Source: Methanoculleus sediminis
GTDB taxonomy: Archaea > Halobacteriota > Methanomicrobia > Methanomicrobiales > Methanoculleaceae
DNA length: 64,000 bases
Direction: 5' to 3'
NCBI RefSeq assembly: GCF_001017125.1
Contig: NZ_JXOJ01000003.1
Coordinates: 1-64,000 of the forward strand
Each line of letters begins with the position of its first letter. The first letter of the stretch is position 1. A model generated the notes under the pieces. It made no database searches and was not told the DNA's origin. It worked only from the letters and a program-made list of their open reading frames with translations. Below are positions 11,299 to 53,032 of the stretch, one piece after another. Both the position numbers and the translations under genes were made by a program.

Positions 11299-11370
11299 GG
11301 GCCGATAGATCAGGGGTAGATCGCTACCTTGGCATGGTAGAGGCCGCGGGTTCAATTCCCGCTCGGTCCA
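11299..11370 (+). tRNA. tRNA-Ala(GGC)
   Basis: The 72-nt cloverleaf has acceptor GGGCCGA/TCGGTCC with the G3:U70 wobble that identifies alanine tRNAs, a D arm GATC/GATC, an anticodon stem CTACC/GGTAG around loop TTGGCAT (anticodon GGC), a T arm GCGGG-TTCAATT-CCCGC and discriminator A. There is no intron and CCA is not encoded. A TATA-like CCTTATTATG lies about 30-40 bp upstream and a T-rich stretch follows. It borders the AT-rich island. Confidence 0.95.
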
Positions 11371-11650: not shown

Positions 11651-14600
11651 TCATGAGTCAGTTTCATTAACGACCACACATTTTTTGATTAAGCCCTCAA
11701 TACCCATATCCAATTCACTAAGTAATTCGGAATTCCCGCTGGTTACTCTTGAAATGCTTCGACCAATTATTTGTAATATCCTACCAACTTTTCGGCCCAT
11801 TTCGTTAATCATTTCATAATCGTCACAGATTTCTGTATGCCCAATTAACCGGCCGAGAGCAAATAGATCATCCGGGTTTTTGAAGTAATAGTGATTTTGT
11901 TCATTTAACGCTAGAGAGCAGTACTGCTTAAATGTATTTTCTGCGATTGAAATCCCTAATTTCTTCGCAACTTTATACAGTTTTGAATACGTTATGATAT
12001 TATTCCCTTCGCCAAATATTTCCTCTAATTCATTAAATGAAATAACTGGAGCCCAAAATATATTTTTCTCAACTTCGTTGATCAGGTTGTCCTCGTTATA
12101 GGGATTTACAAGAGATGTAATTGTAATAACTAACTTTTCTTTTTCTTCGTCAGAGAGCCAGTAAATTTTTTCCAGTTCGGACATAGTATTTGTTTCTTGC
12201 TGGTTTATGGATTTTAAGGCATTATAGAATATTTTAAGGCATGTGAATGGTTCTAAAATTTGCTCAATCGATAAATCTTGGGTATCAAAAAAGTCGTTCA
12301 ATACATAGTTGTCAATGGTTAGCTTATCGCTCGTTTCGATGTATAGAATCTCGTCACCTGTTTTTAAATCCTCTACTGGGCAAAGTAGATAGAGGCCATC
12401 AGTTTTCCTTCTAATGAGAGTGTCTTTTGAAAAGGCGATTTGTTCCGTTGTCCCATTATCAAATTGGACCTTAATGGACAACATATCACGGTTGGAATGA
12501 GGGCAGTATCTATTCGAGAAAGAGAGTTTTTCCTTTCGTGCGGATCTATCTTTCAACCTATCCCAAATACTTTTTAGGGTTATTATCTCTTGCCTTTCAT
12601 CATCATCGTGCGCATTGCGCTCATTAGTTAACTCTTCCCTTACTGCAACATCAAAAGATGTATCTTCGATAATTAGTTGGTCAATAGGTTCATCCAACTG
12701 CTCTATTGGCTTTGGCAAGTCGATAGTGTGACAGTTGTGTGTTTGCTGAAGTGAATACGAAAGGTCTCTAATGGAGATGTCGGTGAGTTCTTTTTTGAAG
12801 AATGGGTCAATTGCCTTTAATTGACGAGTTATTCGTTTAAAATTGATGCCTGGATATGCTAAGAAGATAATTTTTTTGAATGGCAATAATAGCGATGCAT
12901 ATCCTTTGGTAATTATGATGCCTCTATCAGTTATCGTTTGAAATGGAATAGGGCCTGGAATCAACAAGATAGATTGTTTTATTTCATCCTTATCTAATGT
13001 ATATAAATCTGATAAATCATGATGTGAAAAATGCATAGAGGCCATTGTTTTCTTTGTGCCTCTTGGATCTTTCACGCTTATGTCAAGAGATACTTCAAAT
13101 GTTTTGGTGTTGAGGTTAGATTTCATCATTGTGTTTGAAAGGGTATATTCAGAATAGTATCCATCTGTTTTTATGTGCAATCTGTAGATATCCAGCCTGT
13201 CAAGAATTTGTCTCGTTAATTCTGGATTTTCGGATATATTCTTGATTTTTATAAATCGTTCATCGAGTTTAATCGAAACGGAAATGATTAGTGAACCATC
13301 ACAGATATATTGAGAGACTTCCACGGGGAACCTTAAATATCGATTTAATTCTTGCTTAACAAAAATATTTTTAGGCGTCAGTTTTCTTCCATCAAATATT
13401 TCTGCCTCTTTTTTATGAACCTTTAGAAATATCCTCTGCCCTCTCTTGATTATTCTTGGTAGTTCTGAAGAACTGAGTATATCATTAAGACCTGAGAAAA
13501 AATAACGAATCGAATCGAAAATGCCTTTACGAGTTTCAAAATAGGGATGATTTTTTGCGATAACGAATTTTATCAATGGACCTTGTAACTGTTCATCATG
13601 ACTATTCTCATCCAATAGATTTTCAATGCTACTTTGAAGCCACTCAAATACACACATTTGAAAAAGCGTTTTTTTACTCGGTGAAGCATTAGTATGGAGG
13701 CCCCGCAGATAGCGGGAGAGATCCTTACAGGAGTCTAATTCTGAAAAGATGCCAAAAACAGGGCGTAAAAACTTTTCATCAATCGTTGTTTGACTTAGTA
13801 AGTAATCCCTTATTGGAATATATCTCCAGGAGTGAATATCCTCAATATAACTCCTAACTTTAAGTTCAGACGGGTGAAGAAAGACATCTATTACTGGAGG
13901 GAATCTTAGAATGTTCTTTGCCACGTTTGAAGATATATCTCCGCTTGTATCCATTTTCCATATATCACGTAATCGCTCATCAATGGGCCACGTTGTATTA
14001 ATGATACTAGCAGCGCTGCTTTCACTATTAATTCGGTCGGTATAAGGCAAATAGACCTCTACCAAAAATCTACCTGTATCATTTGGATAATATAGTTTAT
14101 CCCACTGATTTCCCTCTAATGAGAGATGTAAAATAGACTCTGGAGGTTTTCTGAATTTCTCTCTCATCTCAAAACAGAGTCGCTTCCCAAGATGAAACAC
14201 TGCAACATTGTGCCGATGAGTTTCTTTTAGTTCACTTAAAAGAGAATTGAGCCCTCCTAAATATGGCCAAGAGAAATGAAGAACAATCTTTTTACCAGAA
14301 CCGATAATGTTTTCAGAAATTTTTAAGAGGTGCTCAAATTCAAATCTTCTTTCATTAATTGATTCGAGGAATATCAAATGGGGGTCGTAGTTGAGTGGCT
14401 GATACTCCTCGCTGATAAATGTGATCTCTTTTTCTCCAGTCATATTTGAGGGTATAGATGTTTCAATTGGTATGCTCAATATAATTGGATTTTGAGTCAG
14501 TTGGCTGTTAGTGAGCCTTTCTCTCATTAGGAGATTATATTTCTCTTTGAACTCTCGTTTACCCTGAGTAGGATATGTCTCGATATCGATATTATTTACA

Positions 14601-14986
14601 GCATCAGTAGAAAGATCAATTTTTCCCTTACACCAAAATAGATCACTATAGAAGAAAAAAGGGTTGGAAATAATCCTGTTAATAATTTTTTGATACGTAA
14701 GGGAAAAATAAGCCTGAGTATATCCCTTATATACTTCGTTGAATTTCTTTTTTGGTATACCAATTAATACATCATGGTTTTGTTTATATGCGTATAAACA
14801 CGCAATTAAGGGAGTGATATTTAGTGAACTCTGGGATAATATTATTGTAACCTGATGTTCAAAAATTGCATTCATGATTTCCAATGAAAAAGGGGATAAG
14901 TTCGAAGAAATGCCATTACTCTCTGTTTTCAATAATACTTCAGAACAATCCTTGTCAATATACTCTATCGAACGTAGTTTCTTCAT
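11651..14986 (-). CDS. large DISARM-associated protein, DrmE-like
   Basis: This 1111-residue protein is the last gene of the drmA-B-C cluster and overlaps drmC by 4 bp (ATGA), so it is translationally coupled. I see no methyltransferase motif, no canonical Walker A and no membrane helix. The N-terminal third resembles a degraded Rossmann/helicase-like fold (VTIILSQSSLNITPLIACLY, then KKIVLHFSWPYLGGLNSLL). A beta-rich region at about 855-915 (QIAFSKDTLIRRKTDGLYL, then VEDLKTGDEILYI) looks like a small Hint- or SH3-like barrel. Position, size and this tail fit DrmE, the poorly understood class 2 DISARM subunit, but similarity was not tested. Codon use is strongly AT-rich, unlike the flanks. Confidence 0.6.
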   Translation of the reverse strand: MKKLRSIEYIDKDCSEVLLKTESNGISSNLSPFSLEIMNAIFEHQVTIILSQSSLNITPLIACLYAYKQNHDVLIGIPKKKFNEVYKGYTQAYFSLTYQKIINRIISNPFFFYSDLFWCKGKIDLSTDAVNNIDIETYPTQGKREFKEKYNLLMRERLTNSQLTQNPIILSIPIETSIPSNMTGEKEITFISEEYQPLNYDPHLIFLESINERRFEFEHLLKISENIIGSGKKIVLHFSWPYLGGLNSLLSELKETHRHNVAVFHLGKRLCFEMREKFRKPPESILHLSLEGNQWDKLYYPNDTGRFLVEVYLPYTDRINSESSAASIINTTWPIDERLRDIWKMDTSGDISSNVAKNILRFPPVIDVFLHPSELKVRSYIEDIHSWRYIPIRDYLLSQTTIDEKFLRPVFGIFSELDSCKDLSRYLRGLHTNASPSKKTLFQMCVFEWLQSSIENLLDENSHDEQLQGPLIKFVIAKNHPYFETRKGIFDSIRYFFSGLNDILSSSELPRIIKRGQRIFLKVHKKEAEIFDGRKLTPKNIFVKQELNRYLRFPVEVSQYICDGSLIISVSIKLDERFIKIKNISENPELTRQILDRLDIYRLHIKTDGYYSEYTLSNTMMKSNLNTKTFEVSLDISVKDPRGTKKTMASMHFSHHDLSDLYTLDKDEIKQSILLIPGPIPFQTITDRGIIITKGYASLLLPFKKIIFLAYPGINFKRITRQLKAIDPFFKKELTDISIRDLSYSLQQTHNCHTIDLPKPIEQLDEPIDQLIIEDTSFDVAVREELTNERNAHDDDERQEIITLKSIWDRLKDRSARKEKLSFSNRYCPHSNRDMLSIKVQFDNGTTEQIAFSKDTLIRRKTDGLYLLCPVEDLKTGDEILYIETSDKLTIDNYVLNDFFDTQDLSIEQILEPFTCLKIFYNALKSINQQETNTMSELEKIYWLSDEEKEKLVITITSLVNPYNEDNLINEVEKNIFWAPVISFNELEEIFGEGNNIITYSKLYKVAKKLGISIAENTFKQYCSLALNEQNHYYFKNPDDLFALGRLIGHTEICDDYEMINEMGRKVGRILQIIGRSISRVTSGNSELLSELDMGIEGLIKKCVVVNETDS

Positions 14987-15786
14987 AGAATAACACGTCC
15001 ATTAGAATACATTGAATCAAACACTTCACAAAGCCCAAACACAACGGGGCCAGAGAGTAAACAACCGACTTCAAAGTTAGCAATTAAACTATTACGTCTG
15101 AACTCCGCACTTCCGATGTACGCAACACCACTGTCAGCAATTAGCATCTTGGCGTGTGTACTTGAAACCACCTTCCCAGTATCAGAGGTATGATGATAAT
15201 CAACAATTGTGACACTATTCTCTAACTCTAATGCTCTGGCGAGTTCTTTTATCCAGGACACTTCAGCATATCGCCTTTCAATAAGTTCTCGAGTCAATAT
15301 CCGGATCTTTACACCCCTAAGCAGCGCCTCCGATAAGTGGTGCTCTAATTCAGGATATGCGTCCTCCTGAATTACGTCCTTTTGTAAAAATGGTGAACAG
15401 ATCCGTAATACACGATGTGCAGATGAAATAACTTGTTGAAAGCACTCAGTAGTTTCAATAAACTGATTACGATACTCAATTCCAGATAAGCTAAGCTCGC
15501 GAAGTCTAGGTTTCGAAATTACAACGACAACTGAGTTTAGTAATTCCTCCGGTTGATAGATTTTAATTTGAGAGATTAAATTGCTGTACTTATCTATAGC
15601 ATTTTTTTCAACTTTTAGGTACCCCTCCTCAATTCCTGTAGTTACTACTCTCTTTAATTCAAATTCGCTTATTGGAGTAGACTCACGGTAATTACGCAGC
15701 AAATCTTCTATCGTAGCAGAACCATGTTCTGCTAGGTACGATCGGATATACTCCATAATCCTTCTATAAACACTAGGATTGATCAT
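14983..15786 (-). CDS. drmC: phospholipase-D-fold protein, DrmC-like
   Basis: The protein has 267 residues. A winged-helix-like N-terminal part (residues 1-90, including ATIEDLLRNYRESTPISEFE) precedes a PLD domain with one HKD motif: His-x-Lys-x4-Asp in STHAKMLIADSGVAYIGSAE, near residue 211. One HKD motif per chain means the active site would form at a dimer interface, as in nucleases of the family. DISARM DrmC has exactly this PLD fold. Its start overlaps the drmB stop by one base (TAATG) and its end overlaps the next gene by four, so all are one transcript. The likely role is nucleic-acid cleavage or binding within the defence complex. Confidence 0.75.
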   Translation of the reverse strand: MINPSVYRRIMEYIRSYLAEHGSATIEDLLRNYRESTPISEFELKRVVTTGIEEGYLKVEKNAIDKYSNLISQIKIYQPEELLNSVVVVISKPRLRELSLSGIEYRNQFIETTECFQQVISSAHRVLRICSPFLQKDVIQEDAYPELEHHLSEALLRGVKIRILTRELIERRYAEVSWIKELARALELENSVTIVDYHHTSDTGKVVSSTHAKMLIADSGVAYIGSAEFRRNSLIANFEVGCLLSGPVVFGLCEVFDSMYSNGRVIL

Positions 15787-17726
15787 TACGAAAGATACCC
15801 GCGAGTATACCTGGGTCCTCCAATTAAGGCTGATCGATCAAGATTTTGGTTGAAATTCGCACACACAAACTCCGGCAGATAACTGCAAGCGTTACAGGAT
15901 CCACCTTCATGGATCATACATGCCGGGTCTTGTGGACAATCTGAAGCGAGGTCGACGGTTCTATTCAGCCAGTCTTCGAGATGATAGTGATATGTGTTTT
16001 CAAGTCCGCCAATGTTAATACTACTTGTTGAGTATATGAAGAACGATCCAGTTTTTGGATAAATGATCTCTGCAAGACTTTGAATATCTAATCCTGTGTT
16101 TATAGTTGATTGTTGGATTAACATATGAGAATACGTGTGCAGCAGAGTGTAAACAGCGTCTTTAAATTTATTGTTATAAGTTATTAAGGATCGATATAGA
16201 ATCTCCTCATTATTGTCATCAAGATTAATTTGAAGACTTTCATCGATGTGCATTTTGTTTGCTTCTGCCCACTCCAAAATTTTGCCATAATCTAGATGGA
16301 AAAGGATTCCCTCGGTTAAAAATTCCCTTAAGAATGTAGTTGGTCTTCTAGAATCGCCGCTTCCTGTAAAAATTAGTTCAAAAAGCAGAGGATCTCGCCG
16401 TGTCGAACCTTTAATCGTTCCTAGAACGGCTTGGACCATGTTGAAATTCGCGACATGCATTATCTCCTTTAATCCAAACCTCTTTAGAAACTGAGAGTAG
16501 TCATTCGGTTTTAAATTTGGTGTGAGCTGCTTCCTCGGGAGCAATGGTGAATCAATATTCTGTTCCCCGGATGGATGCATACCCAAGTATATCCCCTGTA
16601 AATCATTTTCATCAAAGTCTACATCGTTCGTGTCGGTTAAAGCGCGTTCTATTAGATTAATGCCAAATCGCGCTATAACCGCGGCTGAATCGCCTCCAGC
16701 ATCGATAAAGTGGTTGGCAGTTTTTATTATCGTTTTAATTAAATTAATAAATTGGATTTGTGACCATTGGTTTTTTATTTGAACTTCTAAATTTAAGTCT
16801 TCACATGAAGCGATGATTCTTGCTAGAACCCAGAATTCCTCAGTATTGATCATATTTGCCTTAAATTCGGGCAAAAACAGGTGGTGTTCTCCCTCTAAAT
16901 TAGGAAATAAAGCATGAAATGATTCTGAAAAGATTCTCCCTTGTGTATTTCGCCTCCCGGAATTATCAATTTCCTCTCTACTAGGGATATCTGGAATAGA
17001 ATGTACATATGGGTGAATTATTGTTGAAGCTCTTATTGCAACACCTTTGAAGTGTCTTCGTGGTTTGGTGGACAACGTTCTCTCTGAAGTTCTGATATAA
17101 TGATCGCAATATATGAAGTTCAACTTTGTTTCGTGGCCACATTGAGTGCATTTTACTTTGTATGTAGATATTGAGTCCGATTTATCCCAGAGAAGAATAT
17201 TTAGGCTTCTGTCTGCATGACATCCTGGACAGTCATTTCGAAGGTTTGTCATCGAATGGAGTGGAGCAGTTCTCCCGCACTCGTCACAGTATGCGACAAA
17301 TGTAATTTGTTTAAAAGGATCAATGTCATTGTGCCCGCATCCTCTTGGTTTACCCAATTCGAAATAGTGATTACAATATTGGTTATTAGGTAATTTTTTT
17401 CTGCAAATTGCTGTTCTCGGTTCAATCCTATAGTAACCCGAAATCTCTTCTTCCAGGTCATCTACAAATTTTACTGCTTGTAGTTTGAGTTGGTCGGAGA
17501 GAATTTGATGTTGCTCCCAACCATCTCTGGATCTTAAAGCGATGAATTTATTGATTATTCTACAGAATATTGGACGGAATTTCGGGATATTAATATTATC
17601 GGTCTGAATTCGATCCTCAAAATTCAAAAAGACCTGATAACTCATCTTACTTTTAGAGAAGTACTGATCGACATGTCCCTGGAAGAAAGCACTACTCTCG
17701 GGGATAGAGTGTTCAAATTTATTCAT
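15786..17726 (-). CDS. drmB: DUF1998 zinc-binding protein, DrmB-like
   Basis: The protein has 646 residues. The N-terminal half carries several zinc-ribbon pairs (CRKKLPNNQYC, CGH, CDECG, CPGC, CTQCGH; about residues 108-205). The C-terminal 120 residues are a DUF1998 domain: AVYTLLHTYSHMLIQQ, YSTSSINIGGLE, then the Cys cluster CPQDPACM...CNAC and VCANFNQNLDRSALIGG. DUF1998 proteins partner with DISARM helicases, and the DrmA-DrmB complex forms the DNA-loading core. The gene overlaps drmA by 8 bp and touches drmC. It is AT-rich like its neighbours. A generic DUF1998 protein of another helicase system is the alternative. Confidence 0.8.
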   Translation of the reverse strand: MNKFEHSIPESSAFFQGHVDQYFSKSKMSYQVFLNFEDRIQTDNINIPKFRPIFCRIINKFIALRSRDGWEQHQILSDQLKLQAVKFVDDLEEEISGYYRIEPRTAICRKKLPNNQYCNHYFELGKPRGCGHNDIDPFKQITFVAYCDECGRTAPLHSMTNLRNDCPGCHADRSLNILLWDKSDSISTYKVKCTQCGHETKLNFIYCDHYIRTSERTLSTKPRRHFKGVAIRASTIIHPYVHSIPDIPSREEIDNSGRRNTQGRIFSESFHALFPNLEGEHHLFLPEFKANMINTEEFWVLARIIASCEDLNLEVQIKNQWSQIQFINLIKTIIKTANHFIDAGGDSAAVIARFGINLIERALTDTNDVDFDENDLQGIYLGMHPSGEQNIDSPLLPRKQLTPNLKPNDYSQFLKRFGLKEIMHVANFNMVQAVLGTIKGSTRRDPLLFELIFTGSGDSRRPTTFLREFLTEGILFHLDYGKILEWAEANKMHIDESLQINLDDNNEEILYRSLITYNNKFKDAVYTLLHTYSHMLIQQSTINTGLDIQSLAEIIYPKTGSFFIYSTSSINIGGLENTYHYHLEDWLNRTVDLASDCPQDPACMIHEGGSCNACSYLPEFVCANFNQNLDRSALIGGPRYTRGYLS

Positions 17727-20700
17727 TTGATTCCCTCCTTTCTGCCAAATATTGTCGATCTGCTTCGGCCAGAACTAGTCCCAGGTTTTTCTGTATTCCT
17801 CTCATCCCGGACTGATTCCTATATAGGGGATCTCCTGTTTTAGCTAGTAATTTTGGGAAGAAATCAGTGTTACTACCTTGACCTAAAACAACTTCATTGA
17901 TCCGTTCTTCTACCTCCTTTCGAAGGTTTACATCCAGAGCGTTCCTACCGTACGCACTATGCATAAATTGTACAATTCGTTCCTTATCTTCTGGGGTAAG
18001 GTCAGCAATGTCTTGCTTATGATATAGCGGCTTTCCTTTAAGATTTGACATATATGTCAACACACTTGCACAAAACATTGAGTTTAATGTTTGATATATA
18101 CCCAACCGAGAGAACCGATTTATAGGAACTGGTCTGACTTGATGATCTAATGTGTCATGATATCGAGAAAAATTCCTAAAAAAACTATCATCGCGAACCC
18201 GATTTGGGTAAAACCAAACAAGGACAATCCCTAGATGTTTCCTGCCAACCCTTGAAAGAGCTTGGATGTATTCAGCTGTAGAATACGGGAGTCCTTGAAA
18301 TATCATAAAGTTTAACTCTTCAAGGTCCACACCGTGAGAGACAACAGACGTTGAGTAGATCGGTTTTAGAGTTAACTGATGATTTTCAATCAAGTCAGGA
18401 GAATATTCAGTAACATAACTCTTGATGTCATCGATAGTTTGCTTTAACTGCTCTAAAGAATTATCACCTGTTAACGGTACACCTTCGACACCTGCACCAT
18501 AATGTTGGGTGAGAGGTTCTGCAACCACAGCATCCTGTAGGCGCTGCATGTCATATGCATCCTGTTTTTTCAAGTGATATGTTAAGGGGATAATGAATTG
18601 TTTTATCAATTCCTGTGCATTGTTAACATTCTCTAGTAAGTATTCTTCACAGAATCCATCTGGATCGGTGTTTAGGCTAGACTGCGCGTTGATTACGAAT
18701 TCCGCATAGTGAAGTAAAGTTCTCAATGCCGCATAGTGGTTATCTCTTAGATTCGGCTTAAATCCATAGATAACCCTTTTTGGGCCAGTTCGTTTCTCAA
18801 AGAAAACATCATTACTGCTACCGACACCTTCAGGACACCTTCCCGGAATGACAAAGGTGTTCTTCAGATATAATTCCTGTATCTGATTGGATGTACCATT
18901 TAACGTCGCACTCATTGAGATGTGTTTTAACTGCCGACCAGACGTATGTTTGACTATCGATTCGATGAGGCCTTCAAAATGAGAAGATATTGTTCCGAAT
19001 CCCTCTCGTAGTAAGTGCATTTCATCTTGAATTGACAAACGTGGCCCATCTGAACTAGGACGTGATTCACCAATGTGCTCACAATGGAATGCTTCATCTT
19101 TACTATTAGTTTGACACTTGTCTCCCGAGATTATGAACCCATGACCCTCTGAGCATAGACTGCCTCTACCTCCAAGGAGAGCTCTAACTCGCCTTTGCTG
19201 AGCTAAACTGGCCCATTTATCGACAGTAGATACTATAACAGTGGGTCTCCAACGGAAGATTTCGTAGTCGCTAAAGTAGATATAGAACTCCTTATTGCAC
19301 TGATCACACTTATGAATCACTCTACTTCGTGCAGGGTCGTCAATTAGTCTTACTTTACTATTCAGTTCTGCTGCACATAAGGGACACTTCGATACAATCA
19401 GTGATTCTGGAGCTGGCGTTAAAAGCGATTTCCCAGAATATAACTTCTTCTTGACCTCCTTGTAGGTCTTTGGAAAATCATCACTTTGATTACCAACATA
19501 ATAACCAAGAGAGAAGACTTCTCCTGGAAAAATTTGGGGATGTTGCGCACGGACTGCATCCGCATGAATTATGAGGCTAGACAATCTCTCTAGTTGTTGA
19601 ATTGAGAGCATTCTCAAAGGAAATTTTACAATAGCGCTAACTCCATCTTTCTTGTTGTTGATTCTATCGTAAAATGCAGTGAATAACACCAACCCAAAAT
19701 AAGCCTCAGATTTCCCTCCTCCAGTATCGACATGTAGTACATCAACTGTGTCAAGATATTTTTCTTGTACAACTGAAGGAAGGCTTGCAAGAATAAAGGT
19801 CAACTGAAATATTCGCCAACCGGATCCTGGAGTGCCATTATTGTTGTAATAGTTATCAAAAGACAAATTTGTCTTATAAAACGCTTCTTTGACTTTAGGG
19901 TCACACTTGATTAAATCAACTCCTTGACTGACGCGTCCAAGAAGGTTTTTAAAGTGAGATATCTGCTGTTGTTGCTCTCCCCAGGTTCTCTCCTTATGAC
20001 CTTCCCGTGGCTTGTATTCGTTATCATTCACATCATCAGGACAGGCATTTTCGTATGTTTCATGCATTAAATGCAATTCACGTAAGAAGTTATCCAGAAT
20101 TGGAATTGCTGTTTGATCGCTGGTGAAATCATTGAATCGGAACTTAATCTCCTTAATAGATTCTCTGGGTCCAATGTTTTCTTGCTCAAAATAACCATAG
20201 TGCTGCGTAATAAGGGACTCACCCTCTGAAACCCAACGTGCTTGGCAATTAATCGTACGGAAATCGTAATGGTACTTCTGGTGATATTCTTCGTAAAGAT
20301 ACTCATCTTGAAACTCACTCGGAATCAGAGAATGTAACTTGACTTTGATCACGCAATCAAATAATGTTCGTTCAAAGTCGTCTGCTGATTCTGGCTCAAC
20401 ACTTTTATTACAAAAAGTGATTGTGGCAATCAGCCGTTCTTCATCATATTCATGTATATGTACTGAGACCTCCGCTTGCCAAGTCCCAAATGGGATACTG
20501 GTTTTCGTTAACGGATCATTATTGATAACACTAATAGTTTCGGCAAAGTTGAGTCGCTCGCTAAACGAGCTCTGATTATCCTGAGTTTGAGAAACTAAAT
20601 ACAATATATCGACGTGGCATGAATGAGAGAAGGGGCACCTCTTCCAAAGGTAACTCTGAGTTGTTGCCTCTTCATTGCGATCTGGCCGAATCTTATAATA

Positions 20701-21003
20701 TACATGACCAGTAGCAGTTATCGAAAGACTAGACTCTTCAGTTATGCTGCTTTTAGTTAATAATATGGATACTCTGATCTGTTGAGCTCGAATTGAGGCA
20801 GCTTTCTTGTCTGAATCATAGTTATCAGGCTCATCAACTTCGTTAACACGATCTCTAAGCCGTTGGGCCGCAAGGCATCCGAGAATGAAATATTTACTCG
20901 GCTTTTCACTAATGATCCCATCATCATCGTGGGTTCCAGACATTCTAGCTGCTATATACTGGACAAGGTTGTTAGCAAATCGAGATTCTGAAGCGACGTC
21001 CAT
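17719..21003 (-). CDS. drmA: superfamily 2 helicase, DrmA-like
   Basis: This 1094-residue helicase heads the drmABC-E unit. Motif I is VDTGGGKSEA (about residues 418-428), motif II is DEMH (about 659-662, IQDEMHLLREGFG), motif III is SMSATLNG (about 694) and motif VI is QALSRVGRK (about 915), so both RecA lobes are complete. A zinc ribbon (CPLC...CDQC, about 540-575) sits between motifs I and II, and CEHIGE follows further on. The N-terminal 350 residues are a beta-rich domain of unknown role. This layout is that of DISARM DrmA, which loads on DNA ends and blocks phage DNA. A TATA box about 30 bp upstream implies a nearly leaderless message. Confidence 0.8.
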   Translation of the reverse strand: MDVASESRFANNLVQYIAARMSGTHDDDGIISEKPSKYFILGCLAAQRLRDRVNEVDEPDNYDSDKKAASIRAQQIRVSILLTKSSITEESSLSITATGHVYYKIRPDRNEEATTQSYLWKRCPFSHSCHVDILYLVSQTQDNQSSFSERLNFAETISVINNDPLTKTSIPFGTWQAEVSVHIHEYDEERLIATITFCNKSVEPESADDFERTLFDCVIKVKLHSLIPSEFQDEYLYEEYHQKYHYDFRTINCQARWVSEGESLITQHYGYFEQENIGPRESIKEIKFRFNDFTSDQTAIPILDNFLRELHLMHETYENACPDDVNDNEYKPREGHKERTWGEQQQQISHFKNLLGRVSQGVDLIKCDPKVKEAFYKTNLSFDNYYNNNGTPGSGWRIFQLTFILASLPSVVQEKYLDTVDVLHVDTGGGKSEAYFGLVLFTAFYDRINNKKDGVSAIVKFPLRMLSIQQLERLSSLIIHADAVRAQHPQIFPGEVFSLGYYVGNQSDDFPKTYKEVKKKLYSGKSLLTPAPESLIVSKCPLCAAELNSKVRLIDDPARSRVIHKCDQCNKEFYIYFSDYEIFRWRPTVIVSTVDKWASLAQQRRVRALLGGRGSLCSEGHGFIISGDKCQTNSKDEAFHCEHIGESRPSSDGPRLSIQDEMHLLREGFGTISSHFEGLIESIVKHTSGRQLKHISMSATLNGTSNQIQELYLKNTFVIPGRCPEGVGSSNDVFFEKRTGPKRVIYGFKPNLRDNHYAALRTLLHYAEFVINAQSSLNTDPDGFCEEYLLENVNNAQELIKQFIIPLTYHLKKQDAYDMQRLQDAVVAEPLTQHYGAGVEGVPLTGDNSLEQLKQTIDDIKSYVTEYSPDLIENHQLTLKPIYSTSVVSHGVDLEELNFMIFQGLPYSTAEYIQALSRVGRKHLGIVLVWFYPNRVRDDSFFRNFSRYHDTLDHQVRPVPINRFSRLGIYQTLNSMFCASVLTYMSNLKGKPLYHKQDIADLTPEDKERIVQFMHSAYGRNALDVNLRKEVEERINEVVLGQGSNTDFFPKLLAKTGDPLYRNQSGMRGIQKNLGLVLAEADRQYLAERRESNE

Positions 21004-21030
21004 ATTTCACACAGTTAAACCTTCTCTTTG

Positions 21031-21041
21031 GTATATATAAA
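21031..21041 (-). promoter_or_regulatory. TATA box of the drmA-B-C-E operon
   Basis: On the minus strand TTTATATATAC is centred about 33 bp before the drmA ATG, the normal archaeal distance if transcription starts within about 10 bp of the start codon. No TATA-like element or gap separates the four genes downstream. Confidence 0.65.
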
Positions 21042-21250
21042 TGCTACTTATTCGTATCGGAAATTTAGCATTGGGAATAAGATATACTGCGAAAAACGTG
21101 CTCATATAGAGCAAAAGGATAAGACTGTAGTGAATTTGAATGGTATCGGATCTGCAATTAGATCAAAGAATACCCTAGAGCATTCCAAACCCCGATCAAA
21201 AATGTTTAATGAGCTTATTCAAGGATCGTTTCTCCTTGATCATTTACTGA

Positions 21251-22681
21251 CTATGCTTCATTTACTTCTGCAACTTTGACTAACTCTATCATCATCTCCT
21301 TGGCCCTTTTCACACCTTTCTTCCCCGCTAAGATAGCAAATGGGGAAGTTTCTATACTCCAGTCAAAGTTCTTCAATGGATATAGATAAGATCTCAAGTT
21401 CTCTTTCAAAAAGGGGTCCACATGTCTATTTAAACAATGATTAAAGATATCATTAGCCAGATTATTGAGCGAGTAGATACCTATCGATTTTGTTAGCAAA
21501 AATTTATTATAAGATTCTTTGTCAAAAGTCTCAGGGATAATTTCTCTAATCATTCCCCAATAGGCGTGCAGAAACTCTCTTTTCTTCTCGGCGGTTAAAG
21601 AAGTGAAATGCTCGTTGGAAAAGAGAGACTTTAACGAGGTCACAAAGCCATTCAATTGTATTGGTTTCTTCAGTCCAGGAACCCCACCTAAGTTAATAAG
21701 ACCCTCCAAGGGCCCCTGCTCACCATTCAGAGAATTTGCGATCGGAACAACTTCTGTTCTCCATAACTCTTTTTCAATAACTGGTATTCCTCTTATCCCC
21801 GCAGAAATTGTTTTGTATGCCAATTCATCTTTTAGCGAGGCATTCACCGCTTTTTGCGTTTTATTGATAATGAAAAAGAAAGCTCTTTCAATATCAGTAG
21901 GATCAATATCTTCTGGAAGTTTCTTTTCAGTTCGAACTTTATCAGATATTTTTATTGAGTTGATTAACACAATTGGGAGTTCAAAATTAAATAACTCATA
22001 ATATTGTTCTATAATTCCATTGTCTACATCAAAACCGTTGTTTTTGATAAATTCTTTGAACTCTTGAAACACAACTTCAAATCCACTTGTTCTCTGCTGG
22101 CCATCCAGAAGGGCGATTGACCCAGGTATTATCGGCAATTCCAAGTGTCCAAAGCAGTCACCATTTTCCGGTATGAACTGCCCATCTTTTATACTGCCAA
22201 GAATTGCAGGAACTAAGGGGATTGGACACTTTTGGAGATAATCTTTTATTTCTCGTTTCTTTGAGTTATATTGGTTCCTTTGATAACCCTCACAATCATT
22301 GTCGCTCCATTGATCAACCGCAGAGAGTAACAACAACTCATATGCCTTGATTTTACCAAAGTATAGTAAAATATTTTTCTGTCGTGCCCGCATTGCAGGT
22401 ATTTTTATACGCTGCTTCCCAAGGACCTGCTCCCAGATGTCTGAAACCGCTCTATTTGGATTAATCGACTGTTGTCTATAGAGATCTATTATTTCAATTA
22501 GATTGAGTTCTTCGTTGGAAAGACGGGGGCCCTTAAAGGTACAACGTTGAATAATTTTCCCTGGTTTATCGGGAAAGAATAAACTCGGATCGTACCAACA
22601 GCGCTCACAATAATATTCATTATTCTGATATGGTCCAAATTTTTGTCCAAGAATTTCCATCCCACAGCATGCGCATCTCAT
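21251..22681 (-). CDS. DGQHR-domain (DndB/ParB-like) protein with N-terminal zinc ribbon
   Basis: The protein has 476 residues. It starts with a two-knuckle zinc ribbon, MRCACCGME and YYCERCW (residues 3-28). The central domain carries the hallmark IALLDGQQRTSGFEVVFQE (about 190-210), then ELPIVLINS and FFFIINKTQKAVNASLKDEL, the order seen in DGQHR/DndB-type proteins linked to DNA phosphorothioation and 7-deazaguanine modification systems. Those relatives act as regulators or DNA-modification-linked factors; catalytic activity is not assured. Its start overlaps the radical SAM stop by 4 bp (ATGA), so the two are made together. A 248-bp gap with its own TATA box separates it from drmA. Confidence 0.75.
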   Translation of the reverse strand: MRCACCGMEILGQKFGPYQNNEYYCERCWYDPSLFFPDKPGKIIQRCTFKGPRLSNEELNLIEIIDLYRQQSINPNRAVSDIWEQVLGKQRIKIPAMRARQKNILLYFGKIKAYELLLLSAVDQWSDNDCEGYQRNQYNSKKREIKDYLQKCPIPLVPAILGSIKDGQFIPENGDCFGHLELPIIPGSIALLDGQQRTSGFEVVFQEFKEFIKNNGFDVDNGIIEQYYELFNFELPIVLINSIKISDKVRTEKKLPEDIDPTDIERAFFFIINKTQKAVNASLKDELAYKTISAGIRGIPVIEKELWRTEVVPIANSLNGEQGPLEGLINLGGVPGLKKPIQLNGFVTSLKSLFSNEHFTSLTAEKKREFLHAYWGMIREIIPETFDKESYNKFLLTKSIGIYSLNNLANDIFNHCLNRHVDPFLKENLRSYLYPLKNFDWSIETSPFAILAGKKGVKRAKEMMIELVKVAEVNEA

Positions 22682-23763
22682 AGTATGCCCCCCTCTTCTT
22701 TTGGCTTTCTTAGTTCGAAAGCTTCGTCAAAGTTACCCGCTCGCTCAAATTTGTCGATCAATGCCCTATAGGGCGGAAAAATTCCTCTAAAACCTATTAC
22801 GCGGCGTGCCTTTTGAACTGCTTCCACTTGGCCTCTTGTCCAATTTGAGGAAATGTATCGATTTTTTTCCTTTGCTTTTAGTGGCTCGTATCTCATTGGA
22901 TAACATATTGCTCCCCAATTGAGGATGTTGATAACTCTCTCTAAAAACTCTTCAGGAGTATCATGATAATTAAATAATGTGTATACGAAGATTTTTCTTT
23001 TTGGTATACCATTCTCGTTCAATAGTCGAATTGCCTTTTCTACTGAGTTTTTTTGTTCTTTTAAGTCGTATGCAAGTCTTACACTTGCTGCTTTATTCAG
23101 TGGAAGCATGCTGAGATTTTCTGCCAAGTCATTATCGATTAAACGAGCATCTAGACCCTGGTTAAAGTCTACAGTCTTATTTAACTCCCTTAACTCCGCG
23201 AAAATCTCGTGCTTATGGGGATTCCAGAGGAAGTTATTATCAAAGAAAAATATTCTTGAATGTGTTGGCCAAACAAATTCCTTAATAGACGACTTACATG
23301 CATTCAATTTTCCTTCGATTTTTGGAACAGCACAAAATCCACAGTTACGATTACATCCACGTGAAGAAAAGACGATACTTCCATCCCAATCTGGTTTCAG
23401 ACTATAATCTGGTATCAAATCTTCGGTTTCATGGAAAACACCTTGGAAGATATGATCTGCTCCAGATAGCGCTGCGTGCTCAGGGTCTACGGAGGCATAT
23501 ATCCCTCCAAGCCAAATAGCAACTTTTGGAAATAGACGTTTATAATATTTGATCGCTGCCCATACTGGCTTCCAAGTCCATGTAAAAAGACTTGTTACGT
23601 AAATCAAATCGGGTCGCTTTGTAGGTGGCCTACAACCTGTGATCAATTCGACAGAATTTCCTTCTTGCTTGTGATATGAGGCTAATTTCAAGAGGCCTAT
23701 CGGAGGAAACGGCGAATAGTAATCAGGCTCTACTAAAAGGATATGTTTTGGCATATACCTCAT
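22678..23763 (-). CDS. radical SAM protein with B12-binding-like N-terminal domain
   Basis: The 361-residue protein has a Rossmann-like N-terminal domain (residues 1-115, with KHILLVEPDYYSPFPPIGLL and WLGGIYASVDPEHA), arranged like cobalamin-binding domains but without an obvious cobalt-ligating His motif. The radical SAM core follows, with the 4Fe-4S ligands C137, C141 and C144 in RGCNRNCGFCAVPKIEG. FFFDNNFLWNPHKHEI and YTLFNYHDTPEEFLERV are typical of COG1032-like members found in phages and mobile elements. The substrate is unknown. Its coupling to a DGQHR protein beside drmABC suggests DNA or nucleotide modification, which is my inference only. AT-rich codon use marks transfer. Confidence 0.8.
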   Translation of the reverse strand: MRYMPKHILLVEPDYYSPFPPIGLLKLASYHKQEGNSVELITGCRPPTKRPDLIYVTSLFTWTWKPVWAAIKYYKRLFPKVAIWLGGIYASVDPEHAALSGADHIFQGVFHETEDLIPDYSLKPDWDGSIVFSSRGCNRNCGFCAVPKIEGKLNACKSSIKEFVWPTHSRIFFFDNNFLWNPHKHEIFAELRELNKTVDFNQGLDARLIDNDLAENLSMLPLNKAASVRLAYDLKEQKNSVEKAIRLLNENGIPKRKIFVYTLFNYHDTPEEFLERVINILNWGAICYPMRYEPLKAKEKNRYISSNWTRGQVEAVQKARRVIGFRGIFPPYRALIDKFERAGNFDEAFELRKPKEEGGIL

Positions 23764-23956: not shown

Positions 23957-24673
23957 GTGCATCGTTTTCTTATGGAAGAGTCTCGTAAGAAGAAGATACT
24001 CGATATTCTCAGTGGTCCTTACTTCAGAATTGAGGCGACCACTGAAGAAGCTCTTGCTCTTTATGATACCACACTCACGCATAGTTCACTCGCCAATGAG
24101 ATGAAACAGAGGGGGATAATGTGTGACGATTACGAGCGGTTGGAATTCTTCGGGAACTATCTCCTGGATTTCATCGTTGCAGAGCACCTGTATTCCACCA
24201 CATGCCTTCCGGAAGGGGAGATGAATACGCGGATAAAGGTGACAGAAAATTACAATCTGGCGGACATTGTGATGGAATATGATCTGTGACTGGATGACGC
24301 CGTATTATTGTCAAAAAGCACACTGTTGACAGATTCTATCATTGCTGATGTCTTTGAGGCCTTTATTGGCGCGATATACCATAACGTAAGCCCGGAAAAA
24401 GCCAGAGAAGTGATACTTCGGATATTTACCCCTGAAATAGAAAAGGTTTCCGGGGATAAAAACGCGAAAGGGTTACTTCAAGAATATGTTCAGTCGCACC
24501 AACAAGAGAAACCGGAATATACGTATGCGAAATATGGTCCGGATCACGAACCAACATGGACTGCCAACGTCTTCATCGGCGGTAAGAATTATGGTGAAGG
24601 TTCCGGCCCGAAGAAGCGACAGGCCGCCATGAATGCCGCACGCGAGGCGCTACAGAAACTGAATGTCGTATAG
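23957..24673 (+). pseudogene. rnc: ribonuclease III with in-frame TGA and altered catalytic residue
   Basis: Two consecutive reading blocks in one frame make a complete RNase III of about 238 codons, split only by TGA at 24287-24289. The catalytic domain has TLTHSSLANEM and the signature YERLEFFGNYLLDF, where the usual Asp of the ERLEFLGD motif is Asn. ADVFEAFIGAIYH after the stop keeps the second acidic pair. The C-terminal dsRNA-binding domain is intact (AKGLLQEYVQSHQQEKPEYT to KKRQAAMNAAREALQKL). CGA to TGA would explain the break. The gene is divergent from the radical SAM operon. The start may be GTG 23957 or ATG 23972. RNase III is sporadic in archaea. Confidence 0.85.
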
Positions 24674-24820: not shown

Positions 24821-25039
24821 ATGTATCGATTTCTTGTCATCGTCGAGCAGACCGACGGCAACTACTCGGCATACTCCCCGGACATTCCGGGATGCGTGGC
24901 GACCGGAGCGACTCGCGAGGAAGTGAAAGAGCGGATGCACGAAGCGATTGAGTTCCACATCGAAGGGCTCCGGGAGGATGGGCTCCCTATTCCGCCGTCA
25001 CGGTCTTCAGCAATCTACGTGGCGGTCGGTAGAGGATAA
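24821..25039 (+). CDS. hicB: HicB-family antitoxin-like protein, solitary
   Basis: This 72-residue protein has the HicB partial RNase-H-like fold: YRFLVIVEQTDGNYSAYSPD, then IPGCVATGATREEVKERMHE and AIEFHIEGLREDGLPIPP. HicB normally binds and neutralises the mRNA-interferase HicA and represses its own promoter, but no HicA reading frame is visible on either side and no C-terminal DNA-binding domain is present. It may be an orphan or act on another partner. A purine-rich GGCTGAAAGGATTGAATA stretch precedes the ATG. Its 3' end is duplicated near 31.8 kb. Confidence 0.85.
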   Translation: MYRFLVIVEQTDGNYSAYSPDIPGCVATGATREEVKERMHEAIEFHIEGLREDGLPIPPSRSSAIYVAVGRG

Positions 25040-25109
25040 CGTCCTCCTGTCACCAAACCCCTTCTTTTCCAGAATCTTAACGGCTTTCCGGGCCGTGAGC
25101 GCCGGAAGT

Positions 25110-49586: not shown

Positions 49587-50207
49587 CTACGGATCCGTCG
49601 TTGTATCGCAGACCATGGTCAGGACGCCGAGAGTCCGATGCGGCACCCACGCCCTGTGGATGGATACGATGCGAAACCCTGCTCTCTCATACAGTCGCAC
49701 CGCTGCCGGATTGGGGGCGATGACGTTCAGGGTTATCGTTTTGCCCCCGCGGGACCGGACCTTCCGGACGGCGTCTTCGAGCAGAGCCGTGCCGATCCCG
49801 CTGCCCCGCTCTGTCGAAACGACCGAGAGGCTTGAGATGTAGTATCCGGGTTCCGGCTCTTTCATCAGGTAGTCCGGCGCGAAGATCAGCCACTCGGCGA
49901 GAAGGAACCTGACGGCGGTGGCGAGGCCGGCCGCACGGGCGACGGCGAACAACTCCTCCCGGAGTCCGGGAGCATCCGGGGTCTGCATGACCAGGACACC
50001 GACGACCCTGCCTGCCCGGACGGCGCAGGCGATGTTCTCGCGCCCGAAGGCGTTGCCGCCCGCCAGGACCAGTTTTGCAATTTTTCGGAGGGCTGGTGTG
50101 CGATCTCTGCCGAAGACGAGGGGGAAATACACCGGCCCGGTATCGTAGATGAGGGCGGCAACCTCTCGAATGGAGTGCTTTTCCGGGCTGAATGGTTCGA
50201 GGATCAT
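49587..50207 (-). CDS. GNAT-family N-acetyltransferase
   Basis: The 206-residue protein has the acetyl-CoA loop SVVSTERGSGIGTALLEDAV (about residues 128-147) and the C-terminal motif NPAAVRLYERAGFRIV. The N-terminal half has FGRENIACAVRAGRVVGVLV. It resembles ribosomal-protein or small-molecule acetyltransferases; no specific substrate. It is a plain single-domain enzyme with normal composition. Confidence 0.88.
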   Translation of the reverse strand: MILEPFSPEKHSIREVAALIYDTGPVYFPLVFGRDRTPALRKIAKLVLAGGNAFGRENIACAVRAGRVVGVLVMQTPDAPGLREELFAVARAAGLATAVRFLLAEWLIFAPDYLMKEPEPGYYISSLSVVSTERGSGIGTALLEDAVRKVRSRGGKTITLNVIAPNPAAVRLYERAGFRIVSIHRAWVPHRTLGVLTMVCDTTTDP

Positions 50208-50453
50208 CGATGGCGTTCCAGGTGCTCTCGTGGCGGAATCCGGTATGGATTTCGATGGAGGGGATGTATTCGAGCGGTCTCTCTGGGGGTATGGTATTGC
50301 GGGTCGCGATGACGGATAAGGGATGTCCGTGCGATGTATCTATATCACCTGCCCGAGCTGTTTTCCGCCGATTCGTGGAGATGCGTGATCACGCGGAGGA
50401 GTTGCTTTTCGACCGTTTTTATCATATGCCGGAGATTCCCGAAGCTGTGCGTT

Positions 50454-51605
50454 CTACTTGGGGAAGAGGACATCAACTGCAAGATATATCTTTTCAAAAA
50501 TCGCAATTATCGGAAGGATGAAAGAACTTATAAATTGAACGACAGTTTTTGGGTTGTACCCTTTACTCTGATAGTAAAGGGAGAGCAATCTTTCTCTCTC
50601 CGTGTACAGGGTGTCCAGTGAGATTTTTATTCGCGTGATTTCATGCTCGATATCGCTTTCATTTTCTTCCGATATAAGATCTAATAGTTTCCGGTGCTGA
50701 CGACCGTATTTCTCATTGATTCGCTCAATCTGATCTTCGAGGTGTCCCCTCAAAATTTTCCTGATACTTCCTATGCTGGAAATAACGTAGTAAAAACTCA
50801 GAGCATAGAGCGCCAGTAAAATATAGGTCTCGTACAATATGCTGAACGGGTTGACGTATGAGAGAACCAGGAACGCTATTACAATGGAATACGTCACATG
50901 GGATGTCACGATATAATTCCTCAACTGCTGCAACCCCCCGAGCCTGTCGATACACAATATATCCAGGGCTAGAGAGCGACGATACTCCGTGTTGCTGAGC
51001 GTCATGAGAGTCCGGACAGTATTCAGTAAAATCCAGACCATTGTCGCCAGTAAAAAGATATTGATGAAAGAAACCGCTTGATTGACGAAGTCGAGAATAG
51101 CACTCCAGATCGTTGGCTCCTGTAGATAAAACAGATGAGTGAGGCCTTGCAGCAATTCGACACCTTTGATCAGGATAAATAAAGCCATAAACGGCACAAC
51201 CGTCATGAGATAGCCTTTTGCAGACCCAACCCCTTCCTTAAATGTTGAGCGGATATGACCCGGATCGCAACTGTTTTGAGAAGCAACTACGACCTTTGAG
51301 AACGCATGCTCCGCTCTGCTAAGGATATAGTTAATACCAAAGATCTGAAAGCCGACCAGAATACTCATTGAGAAGAGCTCTGTGAGAGTCCACGGGTTTA
51401 AAGGGAACCATTTTACATTTACGCTCAGAATCAAGAAGATTATGGCGAGAGCACCCGACACCGATACCGATAATACGGGATAGGAGAGAGAACTCCGACA
51501 GAAGATCCTTTCGATCCAGTTCTCATATTCTCTTCCGGTCATTTCGCTACCGCTGTTTGCTTTCAAGTGCGGGATCCACAAAAATTTGTATGGTATGTCC
51601 CTCAA
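50454..51605 (-). CDS. multi-helix membrane protein with cytoplasmic coiled coil
   Basis: The 383-residue protein has about seven hydrophobic segments (YPVLSVSVSGALAIIFLILS, TELFSMSILVGFQIFGINYI, YLMTVVPFMALFILIKGVEL and others), and a charged helical part at about 285-345 (RGHLEDQIERINEKYGRQHR and IEHEITRIKISLDTLYTERE) that looks like a coiled coil, before a final hydrophobic stretch. The family is unknown. The gene overlaps the PEGA gene's stop by 4 bp, so a secreted PEGA-propeller protein and this membrane protein are made together. Composition is more AT-rich than the neighbours. Confidence 0.75.
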   Translation of the reverse strand: MRDIPYKFLWIPHLKANSGSEMTGREYENWIERIFCRSSLSYPVLSVSVSGALAIIFLILSVNVKWFPLNPWTLTELFSMSILVGFQIFGINYILSRAEHAFSKVVVASQNSCDPGHIRSTFKEGVGSAKGYLMTVVPFMALFILIKGVELLQGLTHLFYLQEPTIWSAILDFVNQAVSFINIFLLATMVWILLNTVRTLMTLSNTEYRRSLALDILCIDRLGGLQQLRNYIVTSHVTYSIVIAFLVLSYVNPFSILYETYILLALYALSFYYVISSIGSIRKILRGHLEDQIERINEKYGRQHRKLLDLISEENESDIEHEITRIKISLDTLYTERERLLSLYYQSKGYNPKTVVQFISSFILPIIAIFEKIYLAVDVLFPK

Positions 51606-53032
51606 AAAAAGGGGAAAAGTGACGTTTCGGCGGGAATAGTTGTCAACGACCAGATTTGATGCTCGTCACAGGTTACGTTGACCGTCATGGATTCCTGCAC
51701 ATCGATGGTCTGGTTATAGGGTGGATAACCTTCCAGGCTTAAACCCAGTTCGTAGGATCCCTTTTCACTGAGCGTTTTTATGAACGGAGTTTGCCCCAGT
51801 ACCTTGTTATCCAACGACACGGTTGCTCCGCTTGGCACCGATTCGATGTTCAACGTAATCTGCGGCATAAGGTCGTAAAAAACCCGGGGTGCCGGCCTGA
51901 CGATGGTTGTGTTATAATGAGCGATATCAGGATAGGACTCCCAGACGACAGTGCTTTCGTCCATATCGGTCCAATAGAGATCTGCCGGACCGGTCATCAA
52001 CGTTGTACCTCTTGCGCTCATGTTGTCAAGATAGATCTCCGTCATGTATTCGCCGGACGAGAGATTCAAGGATAAGCGCTCCGTAACGATCGATCCGCCG
52101 GATATGGAACAACCTAACAGGGGATCCGATGACGATTGGAGGACGGTCTCTCTGCCGGAAGAAGCATTGTGCCCGTAGAGCGCATACTCGTCCCCCTGCA
52201 TCGTCCCCCATATTATTACGTCGTTTGACATACGGAGAAACTGCGGACGGTAAATCCCGTAGTGGGTCAGTTCGGAGGAGGTGTTGCTCGAAATGTCGTA
52301 ACTGTGAAGGTCATAGATCAGGTTGTCGGCGTCAGCCGGATCGGACTTTTCCCACCAGATAACCCGCTCCCCGGAGATCTTTGGACAACCGCTTACCGGA
52401 GAAGAATCCGAATAGTGCGTGATCTGTGTCACTGAATCGGTAGCGATGTTGTACAGGTATATGTTCGAACTGTTGGAATCTCGATCGATCCCGTGCCAGA
52501 CCACATAGTCTCCGCTGATGCCCGGGGGCTCACCGATGACTCCGTGTGCCCACGTATCCCCGGTCGGGATGGTGTCGGTGAACGCTTTCTCTTCATTGCT
52601 TGTGAGGTTCAGCAGGGTTAGGCCTGGAACGGCTTTACAATCTGTAACTGGCGTATCCATGCAGTAGTCTACCCAGACAGCGTAGTTCCCCGATGCTTCC
52701 ACACGCTGAGGATTGAACACGTTCTCCTTTAATTTAAACTTCCGACCTGTCGTCAGGTTGTATACGGCCAGATCGAACCTGTTGTTGTCACTCCCAGGAC
52801 CTTCGGTATATTCCCACCAGAAAACCCGGTCGCCCGATATCGATGGGAGCGAGCGGGTGGCGTTGTCACCCGGGTCACGCGGGATGGTGGAGTAGCCCGG
52901 GTCTTCCGTTTGAGGTTCGTCGGATGAATTTTGCCCAATAATGTCTGTTGCATCTACTGTTGTGGCAATAAGGGTGCAGGATACTATCACGAGCGCTACG
53001 GAGCAGAATAGCAATGAGATTATTTTTGTCAT
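51602..53032 (-). CDS. secreted TolB-like beta-propeller with C-terminal PEGA domain
   Basis: The protein has 476 residues from ATG 53032, where a signal peptide begins (TKIISLLFCSVALVIVSCTL). The next 330 residues hold repeated propeller blades (PSISGDRVFWWEY, PPGISGDYVVWHG, PKISGERVIWWEK, NDVIIWGTMQGDEYALYG). A PEGA domain follows (LNIESVPSGATVSLDNKVLG, then GSYELGLSLEGYPPYNQTID). Many Asn-x-Ser/Thr sites suit a glycosylated surface protein. No C-terminal anchor is visible; the coupled membrane protein downstream may hold it. The longer upstream frame lacks a signal. Confidence 0.8.
   Translation of the reverse strand: MTKIISLLFCSVALVIVSCTLIATTVDATDIIGQNSSDEPQTEDPGYSTIPRDPGDNATRSLPSISGDRVFWWEYTEGPGSDNNRFDLAVYNLTTGRKFKLKENVFNPQRVEASGNYAVWVDYCMDTPVTDCKAVPGLTLLNLTSNEEKAFTDTIPTGDTWAHGVIGEPPGISGDYVVWHGIDRDSNSSNIYLYNIATDSVTQITHYSDSSPVSGCPKISGERVIWWEKSDPADADNLIYDLHSYDISSNTSSELTHYGIYRPQFLRMSNDVIIWGTMQGDEYALYGHNASSGRETVLQSSSDPLLGCSISGGSIVTERLSLNLSSGEYMTEIYLDNMSARGTTLMTGPADLYWTDMDESTVVWESYPDIAHYNTTIVRPAPRVFYDLMPQITLNIESVPSGATVSLDNKVLGQTPFIKTLSEKGSYELGLSLEGYPPYNQTIDVQESMTVNVTCDEHQIWSLTTIPAETSLFPFF

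Follow-up and report, generated by a model that had tools for sequence, protein, structure and literature searches.

The locus examined here raises the question of how a DISARM-type defence system without a methyltransferase could tell the DNA of its host from that of an invader. It lies in a stretch of 64,000 nucleotides from Methanoculleus sediminis (contig NZ_JXOJ01000003.1, positions 1 to 64,000; hereafter the window), in which six minus-strand genes at 11651–23763 encode, in order of transcription, a radical S-adenosylmethionine enzyme (rSAM), a DGQHR protein and, after a gap of 247 bp (21004..21250), DrmA, DrmB, DrmC and a protein of 1111 residues (orf1111). In DISARM and Pbe, self is thought to be told from non-self by methylated or phosphorothioated DNA; a marking enzyme is missing from many Pbe loci. 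We consider it probable that the island is a DISARM-type system whose methyltransferase is replaced by a self-marking cassette, rSAM plus DGQHR, which acts on DNA and is shared among effectors.

Gene content of the island

The six genes lie where the original prediction had placed them, and its drmA-drmB-drmC trio is backed by PADLOC matches. DrmA, the SF2 helicase of DISARM (1094 aa, 17719..21003), matches the PADLOC profile with an E value of 7.6e-98; its NF038325 score of 296 bits is below the cut-off of 950, indicating a divergent DrmA. It is followed by the MZB/DUF1998 protein DrmB (646 aa, 15786..17726; PADLOC 5e-21, NF038324 2.7e-22) and the PLD-fold nuclease DrmC (267 aa, 14983..15786; PF13091 48.7 bits, PADLOC 3.8e-13). 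PADLOC, Pfam and NCBIfam thus identify the three core genes of DISARM (drmABC with drmE/drmMII or drmD/drmMI), in order and in one operon, their ends overlapping each other and orf1111 (DrmA/DrmB 8 bp, DrmB/DrmC 1 bp, DrmC/orf1111 4 bp), although the proteins fall far under the NCBIfam equivalog cut-offs. The methylase component is absent: as originally predicted, no methyltransferase, drmMI and drmMII included, was matched among the island genes, and a scan of the window for open reading frames (ORFs) with methylase motifs gave no credible candidate. We therefore class the island within DISARM-type immunity, as a variant that has what would be an undescribed marking module. The ATPase activity of DrmAB rises with unmethylated DNA and falls with methylated DNA (PMC9142583).

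The fourth gene of the drm unit, orf1111 (11651..14986), probably encodes a very divergent, enlarged DrmE-like subunit. It returned no match in Pfam, PADLOC or NCBIfam and no usable match in a PDB sequence search, and its AlphaFold model (pLDDT 56.5) was too poor for use in fold comparison. A full-length hhalign run against DrmE matched the N-terminal 200 residues at 91 % probability, while the N-terminal, middle and C-terminal thirds run separately gave colinear but weak matches (7, 53 and 54 %, respectively). The earlier description of this gene as DrmE-like is therefore weakly sustained, by the colinear profile matches and not by any family assignment, and a strongly diverged DrmE is plausible from the sequence. 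As a large fourth subunit it would resemble DISARM, and two sister loci with an rSAM, L239 and L240, have Pfam DrmE_C.

The rSAM gene (361 aa, 22678..23763) overlaps the DGQHR gene by 4 bp upstream of the drm genes, and family matches agree with the original naming of both. An N-terminal B12-binding-like Rossmann domain (PF02310, 34 bits, cut-off 32.1) precedes a radical SAM core (Radical_SAM, 26.6 bits, just under the cut-off of 29.5) with CxxxCxxC at residues 137–144, a motif kept in 105/105 relatives. The AlphaFold model (pLDDT 93.7) places this motif within a radical SAM fold, with TsrM as the best Foldseek match (6wtf, E value 1e-11), followed by MTAB and MiaB-RNA (7mjw), and TM-scores of about 0.6 against all three; the enzyme is likely of the class-B, cobalamin type. 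No near-invariant cysteine beyond CxxxCxxC was present in alignments of 40–45 rows, and a MiaB/RimO methylthiotransferase was rejected as the three N-terminal cysteines of the auxiliary FeS cluster were not found. PPR matches of the C-terminus in PDB were discarded since no single stretch reached threshold.

The DGQHR protein (476 aa, 21251..22681), of the DndB/DpdB family within the ParB superfamily, has an N-terminal CxxC...CxxC zinc-ribbon-like segment and a DGQQRT motif, which is invariant across nine homologues. It scored 73.1 bits with TIGR03187 (cut-off 58.85), 42.2 bits with PF14072 DndB (cut-off 29.1) and 8e-13 with PADLOC DpdB; a PDB sequence search gave no usable match. The resemblance to DpdB recalls the Dpd 7-deazaguanine DNA modification system, and DUF1998/helicase/PLD triads occur in Dpd and DISARM alike; however, none of the six island genes matches the transglycosylase DpdA, and an rSAM is present instead. 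Dnd is likewise not represented, the DndC PP-loop enzyme with DndD/DndE being absent among the island genes.

Recurrence, effector exchange and exclusion of known marking genes

Among 199 genomes of the order, with 20 kb fetched around each locus, rSAM relatives of 48–75 % identity were present at nine further loci. A DGQHR gene directly follows at eight of these, its end mostly overlapping. Three kinds of neighbour accompany the pair: drmABC-orf1111 (L021, L022 and L028); a PLD-helicase, an SMC-like ATPase and a small protein (L024, L026 and L027), which PADLOC assigns to PbeA (E value 3e-224) and PbeC (E value 2e-123); and another DndB protein, this one having a HEPN match (L023 and L025). 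PbeC is a CxC ABC ATPase and PbeD is DndE (PMC10853773), and the small protein would fit PbeD by position.

The effectors are exchanged between closely related cassettes. The rSAMs of L027 (Pbe) and L028 (DISARM) are 85 % identical and those of L022 (DISARM) and L023 (DndB-HEPN) 82 %, with the DGQHR proteins of effector-swapped pairs at 71–80 % identity, and L025 and L026 carry different effectors within one genome, their rSAMs falling in the same range of 82–85 % identity. Over a 65-leaf rSAM tree, effector type changes 28 times (minimum 4, shuffle average 39). Across archaea and bacteria, the rSAM accompanies DISARM, PbeA-PbeC-DndE, NurA-HerA, SNF2-nuclease and DndB-HEPN modules. The order of the rSAM-DGQHR and drmABC-orf1111 units is permuted in L028 and L038, indicating that they are separable cassettes.

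A species-level scan of 84,980 genomes returned 323 rSAM relatives, in archaea, Chloroflexota, Bacillota, Planctomycetota, Thermodesulfobacteriota and others. Among the best 80 of these (L034–L113), neighbours comprised ParB/DGQHR proteins (28 loci), GHKL ATPases (36), Drm (7), Pbe (10), SNF2 helicases resembling ZorD/DpdE (13), NurA-HerA-like pairs (13; names taken from the annotation of Marinitoga camini virus 1, not from Pfam matches) and NERD-helicases (4). DGQHR/ParB or GHKL lies within 300 bp of the rSAM in 52/80 loci, on the same strand in 48 of 49 adjacent partner matches, and the density of partner matches is 0.38 per kb up to 1 kb from the rSAM vs 0.02 at 3–6 kb. The partner profiles were built partly from the rSAM neighbours themselves, so independent support comes from RefSeq naming on alphaproteobacterial plasmids: those of Novosphingobium and Rhizobium are labelled DGQHR, radical SAM and ATP-binding, and that of Roseomonas has the DGQHR and ATP-binding labels with the rSAM itself unnamed. 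On the Roseomonas plasmid the DGQHR-rSAM-GHKL operon is oriented opposite to a SNF2-nuclease operon, the two forming separable units. The alternative partner, a HATPase_c_3 GHKL protein, resembles the MORC-like GHKL ATPases of restriction-modification operons (PMC2292703), where a radical enzyme is not mentioned; the system in the window has DGQHR instead.

Recurrence also holds when searched from the drm side. An rSAM is in the cluster at all nine loci whose DrmA is closest to that of the window (E value ≤ 1e-145) and at none of the next thirteen fetched (L241–L253), several of which have methylases and DrmE; orf1111, found in six of 393 genomes sampled at phylum level, is accompanied by drmABC and an rSAM in all six. 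The link between the two units, for which recurrence had been set as the test in advance, is thereby upheld, and this two-way recurrence rejects chance proximity of rSAM-DGQHR to the drm genes.

Where the rSAM is present, the known marking genes are not. Searching by sequence motif for methylases of the amino and C5 types and for the DndC PP-loop, we found such genes in 0/12 Pbe loci with an rSAM vs 21/27 without (Fisher P=5e-6), and in 0/10 vs 20/23 after short contigs were dropped (P=3e-6). For DISARM loci of sufficient length, the counts were 0/17 vs 7/13 (P=8e-4; P=0.016 once near-identical loci were collapsed and the clearer motifs alone kept), and in addition to the rSAM, the loci of the window's clade carry DGQHR. 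This mutual exclusion indicates that the rSAM occupies the slot of the marking enzyme. The same holds relative to the phosphorothioate system DndCDEA-PbeABCD (PMC6459918, PMC10853773): sister rSAM-DGQHR cassettes have PbeA, PbeC and a DndE-like protein as neighbours, and the rSAM loci share a DGQHR/DndB-family protein with it, but the PP-loop DndC is missing from all 12 rSAM Pbe loci and the rSAM stands in its place. Pbe requires host phosphorothioation and spares phosphorothioated virus (PMC6459918); no modification component was recorded at 165 of 553 PbeAC loci (Xiong et al., PMC6459918), and methylases have been noted as replacements for phosphorothioation, with no mention of a radical enzyme (PMC10853773). 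Other contigs of the source genome (G000) encode C5 and N6/N4 methylases; a C5 methylase is missing from four of the six genomes with orf1111, and the consistent pairing of a methyltransferase with these drm genes that would have spoken against the original prediction was not seen. A methyltransferase hidden in the island or window was rejected for the same reason and for want of a credible candidate.

Viral contigs yielded 452 rSAM relatives, of which 79 loci were counted. The island enzyme falls in PHROG 9298 (E value 6.5e-64), the phage 'radical SAM domain protein', and in about 15 viral contigs the rSAM overlaps or abuts a ParB-like gene of 200 aa (L120, L121, L123, L126, L128, L129, L132, L146, L147, L157, L158, L166, L168 and L191). 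Unlike the island, most phage copies lack an effector module, and 20/79 viral loci combine ParB with the lack of a recognised effector, a pattern that a protective modification would produce. An rSAM of 47 % identity lies beside HerA and NurA-like genes in Marinitoga camini virus 1. Separately, a DNA amino-methylase was present near the rSAM in 14 viral loci.

Further loci and the surroundings of the island

Several rSAM loci differ in composition from those described above. Clostridia (Gemmiger and Dysosmobacter; L107, L109, L110, L111 and L154) have clusters of DrmA, DrmB, a NERD/UvrD helicase, a 685-aa rSAM and GHKL, a second, bacterial form of rSAM-DISARM. Bacterial rSAM-Pbe loci (L083, L089, L097, L108 and L112) encode a large uncharacterised protein (c16, 1026–1308 aa) upstream of PbeA, with a match resembling the C-terminal domain of RNA polymerase alpha, and in a bathyarchaeal rSAM-Pbe locus (L041:8728–9672, plus strand), a PbeD/DndE-like small protein appears, as judged by eye, to be fused to a C-terminal Schlafen AlbA_2-like segment. 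A set of four genes beside the rSAM, encoding a ParB-like protein, a possible nuclease of ~136 aa, a SNF2 helicase and another ParB-like protein, was found in L043, L044, L050, L075, L085, L096, L102, L104, L105, L137, L167, L232 and L283; it is an apparent defence system, for which PADLOC gives a weak candidate match alone (PDC-M38A). NurA-like and HerA-like pairs accompany the rSAM in L078, L081, L082, L088, L090, L093, L098–L100 and L230 (phage), with a GHKL ATPase added in the bacterial loci.

The original prediction of an AT-rich insert beside tRNA-Ala was accurate: the island has a GC content of 34–41 % vs 60–70 % in the surrounding DNA and is flanked by the tRNA at 11299–11370. The 3′ end of the tRNA gene is present as a single copy in the window, where a second copy forming an att repeat was not found, and a promoter and terminator scan with a bacterial model, unsuited to archaea, gave matches no more numerous than in shuffles. 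At the other boundary lies a gene with RNase III and dsrm domains (23957–24673, plus strand) that is split by an in-frame TGA near 24287 and is probably decayed. Just beyond it, a short plus-strand ORF (24822–25040), named by eye, may encode a HicB-type antitoxin-like protein. Elsewhere in the window, positions 50001–53000 form another AT-rich stretch (GC 47–53 %).

Readings of the radical SAM cassette

The simplest role for a cassette that is swapped among mark-gated effectors, excludes known marking enzymes and is found in phages on its own would be to write a DNA mark. We infer that its substrate is DNA and that its product marks self, in which case the following chemistry may apply. The DGQHR protein, a member of the ParB/Srx superfamily, would bind or open DNA using nucleotide, by analogy with DndB/DpdB; the rSAM, possibly assisted by cobalamin, would then modify host DNA chemically at chosen sites; and DrmAB-DrmC-orf1111 would treat unmarked DNA as foreign and block it. 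The rSAM with DGQHR/ParB, or with a GHKL ATPase, would form a general module onto which DISARM, Pbe, NurA-HerA, SNF2-nuclease or DndB-HEPN effectors are swapped. The originally proposed DISARM variant with a radical-SAM-derived mark is supported by the recurrence but is too narrow, because the cassette also replaces Pbe marking genes and accompanies other effectors. We give even chances to the wider proposal, that an undescribed DNA modification, made by a radical SAM enzyme that works with a GHKL ATPase or a DGQHR protein of the ParB superfamily, serves prokaryotic immunity as a widespread and interchangeable self-marking module, replacing methylation or phosphorothioation across five systems and acquired by phages for genome protection.

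Several observations weigh against a DNA-marking cassette. No recognised partner was found at 15/80 rSAM loci, some on truncated contigs. The original prediction had expected rSAM and DGQHR together next to drmABC; the rSAM accompanies all of the closest DrmA loci and all orf1111 loci, but DGQHR is less constant, five divergent rSAM-DISARM loci (L235–L239) having no recognised DGQHR neighbour. Relatives of DGQHR such as DndB and GmrS also act in regulation or as restriction NTPases rather than as writers; the exclusion counts identify methylases from motifs alone; and a type IIG restriction-modification gene lies near the rSAM in L046. The nearest solved enzymes act on tryptophan or tRNA, not DNA, and the DxHxxG cobalamin motif is present in only 1/105 relatives, making cobalamin use uncertain. 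B12-type rSAM enzymes often methylate, and the 'non-methyl' chemistry originally suggested stays putative.

Of the alternatives, it is unlikely that the rSAM acts not on DNA but on one of the system's own proteins, either DGQHR or an effector subunit, switching it on or off. The closest fold, that of TsrM, belongs to an enzyme with an amino acid as substrate, and many B12-rSAM enzymes modify peptides, but with five unrelated effector types and orphan phage copies paired solely with a ParB-like protein, the sole possible common target is the ParB/DGQHR partner, which GHKL-only systems lack. Quite unlikely is a viperin-like role, in which the product of the rSAM would be a diffusible nucleotide analogue or signal, acting as a block on virus replication or as an activator of effectors, with DGQHR sensing or regulating it; prokaryotic viperins are known antiviral rSAM enzymes, DGQHR-like proteins are NTPases, and a wide variety of effectors fits one common signal, yet exclusion with methylases and DndC puts the rSAM in the marking slot, effectorless rSAM-ParB pairs in phages would be odd for a virus-killing signal, and the modelled fold is nearest MiaB/TsrM with a B12-binding-like domain. 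We regard as very unlikely a reader or eraser that recognises or strips virus-specific base modifications so that the effectors can attack whatever this exposes: DGQQR motifs are known from GmrS/DUF262 enzymes acting on modified DNA (PMC10952713), and rSAM enzymes such as spore photoproduct lyase reverse DNA lesions, but neither the exclusion of DndC and methylases nor phage carriage would be explained. That the rSAM-DGQHR genes share a defence island with the drm genes without any link to them, as the 247-bp gap, the permutable units and the clustering of defence genes might suggest, is scarcely credible given the reverse recurrence (9/9 and 6/6), the density of partner matches (0.38 vs 0.02 per kb) and the spread across archaeal and bacterial phyla.

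We found no literature linking radical SAM enzymes with DISARM, Dnd, Pbe, MORC, an anti-phage role or such a host DNA mark, in a search outside which preprints and subscription papers fell, so that an earlier description is possible. The DNA-marking reading is directly testable where the cassette is carried: in Novosphingobium aromaticivorans DSM 12444 (plasmid pNL1, rSAM gene SARO_RS17525), Rhizobium leguminosarum WSM1325, Methanohalophilus euhalobius WG-1MB and Marinitoga camini virus 1. If it is true, an rSAM cassette filling the marking slot would explain part of the gap left by Pbe loci without a marking enzyme, and would predict a new DNA modification.

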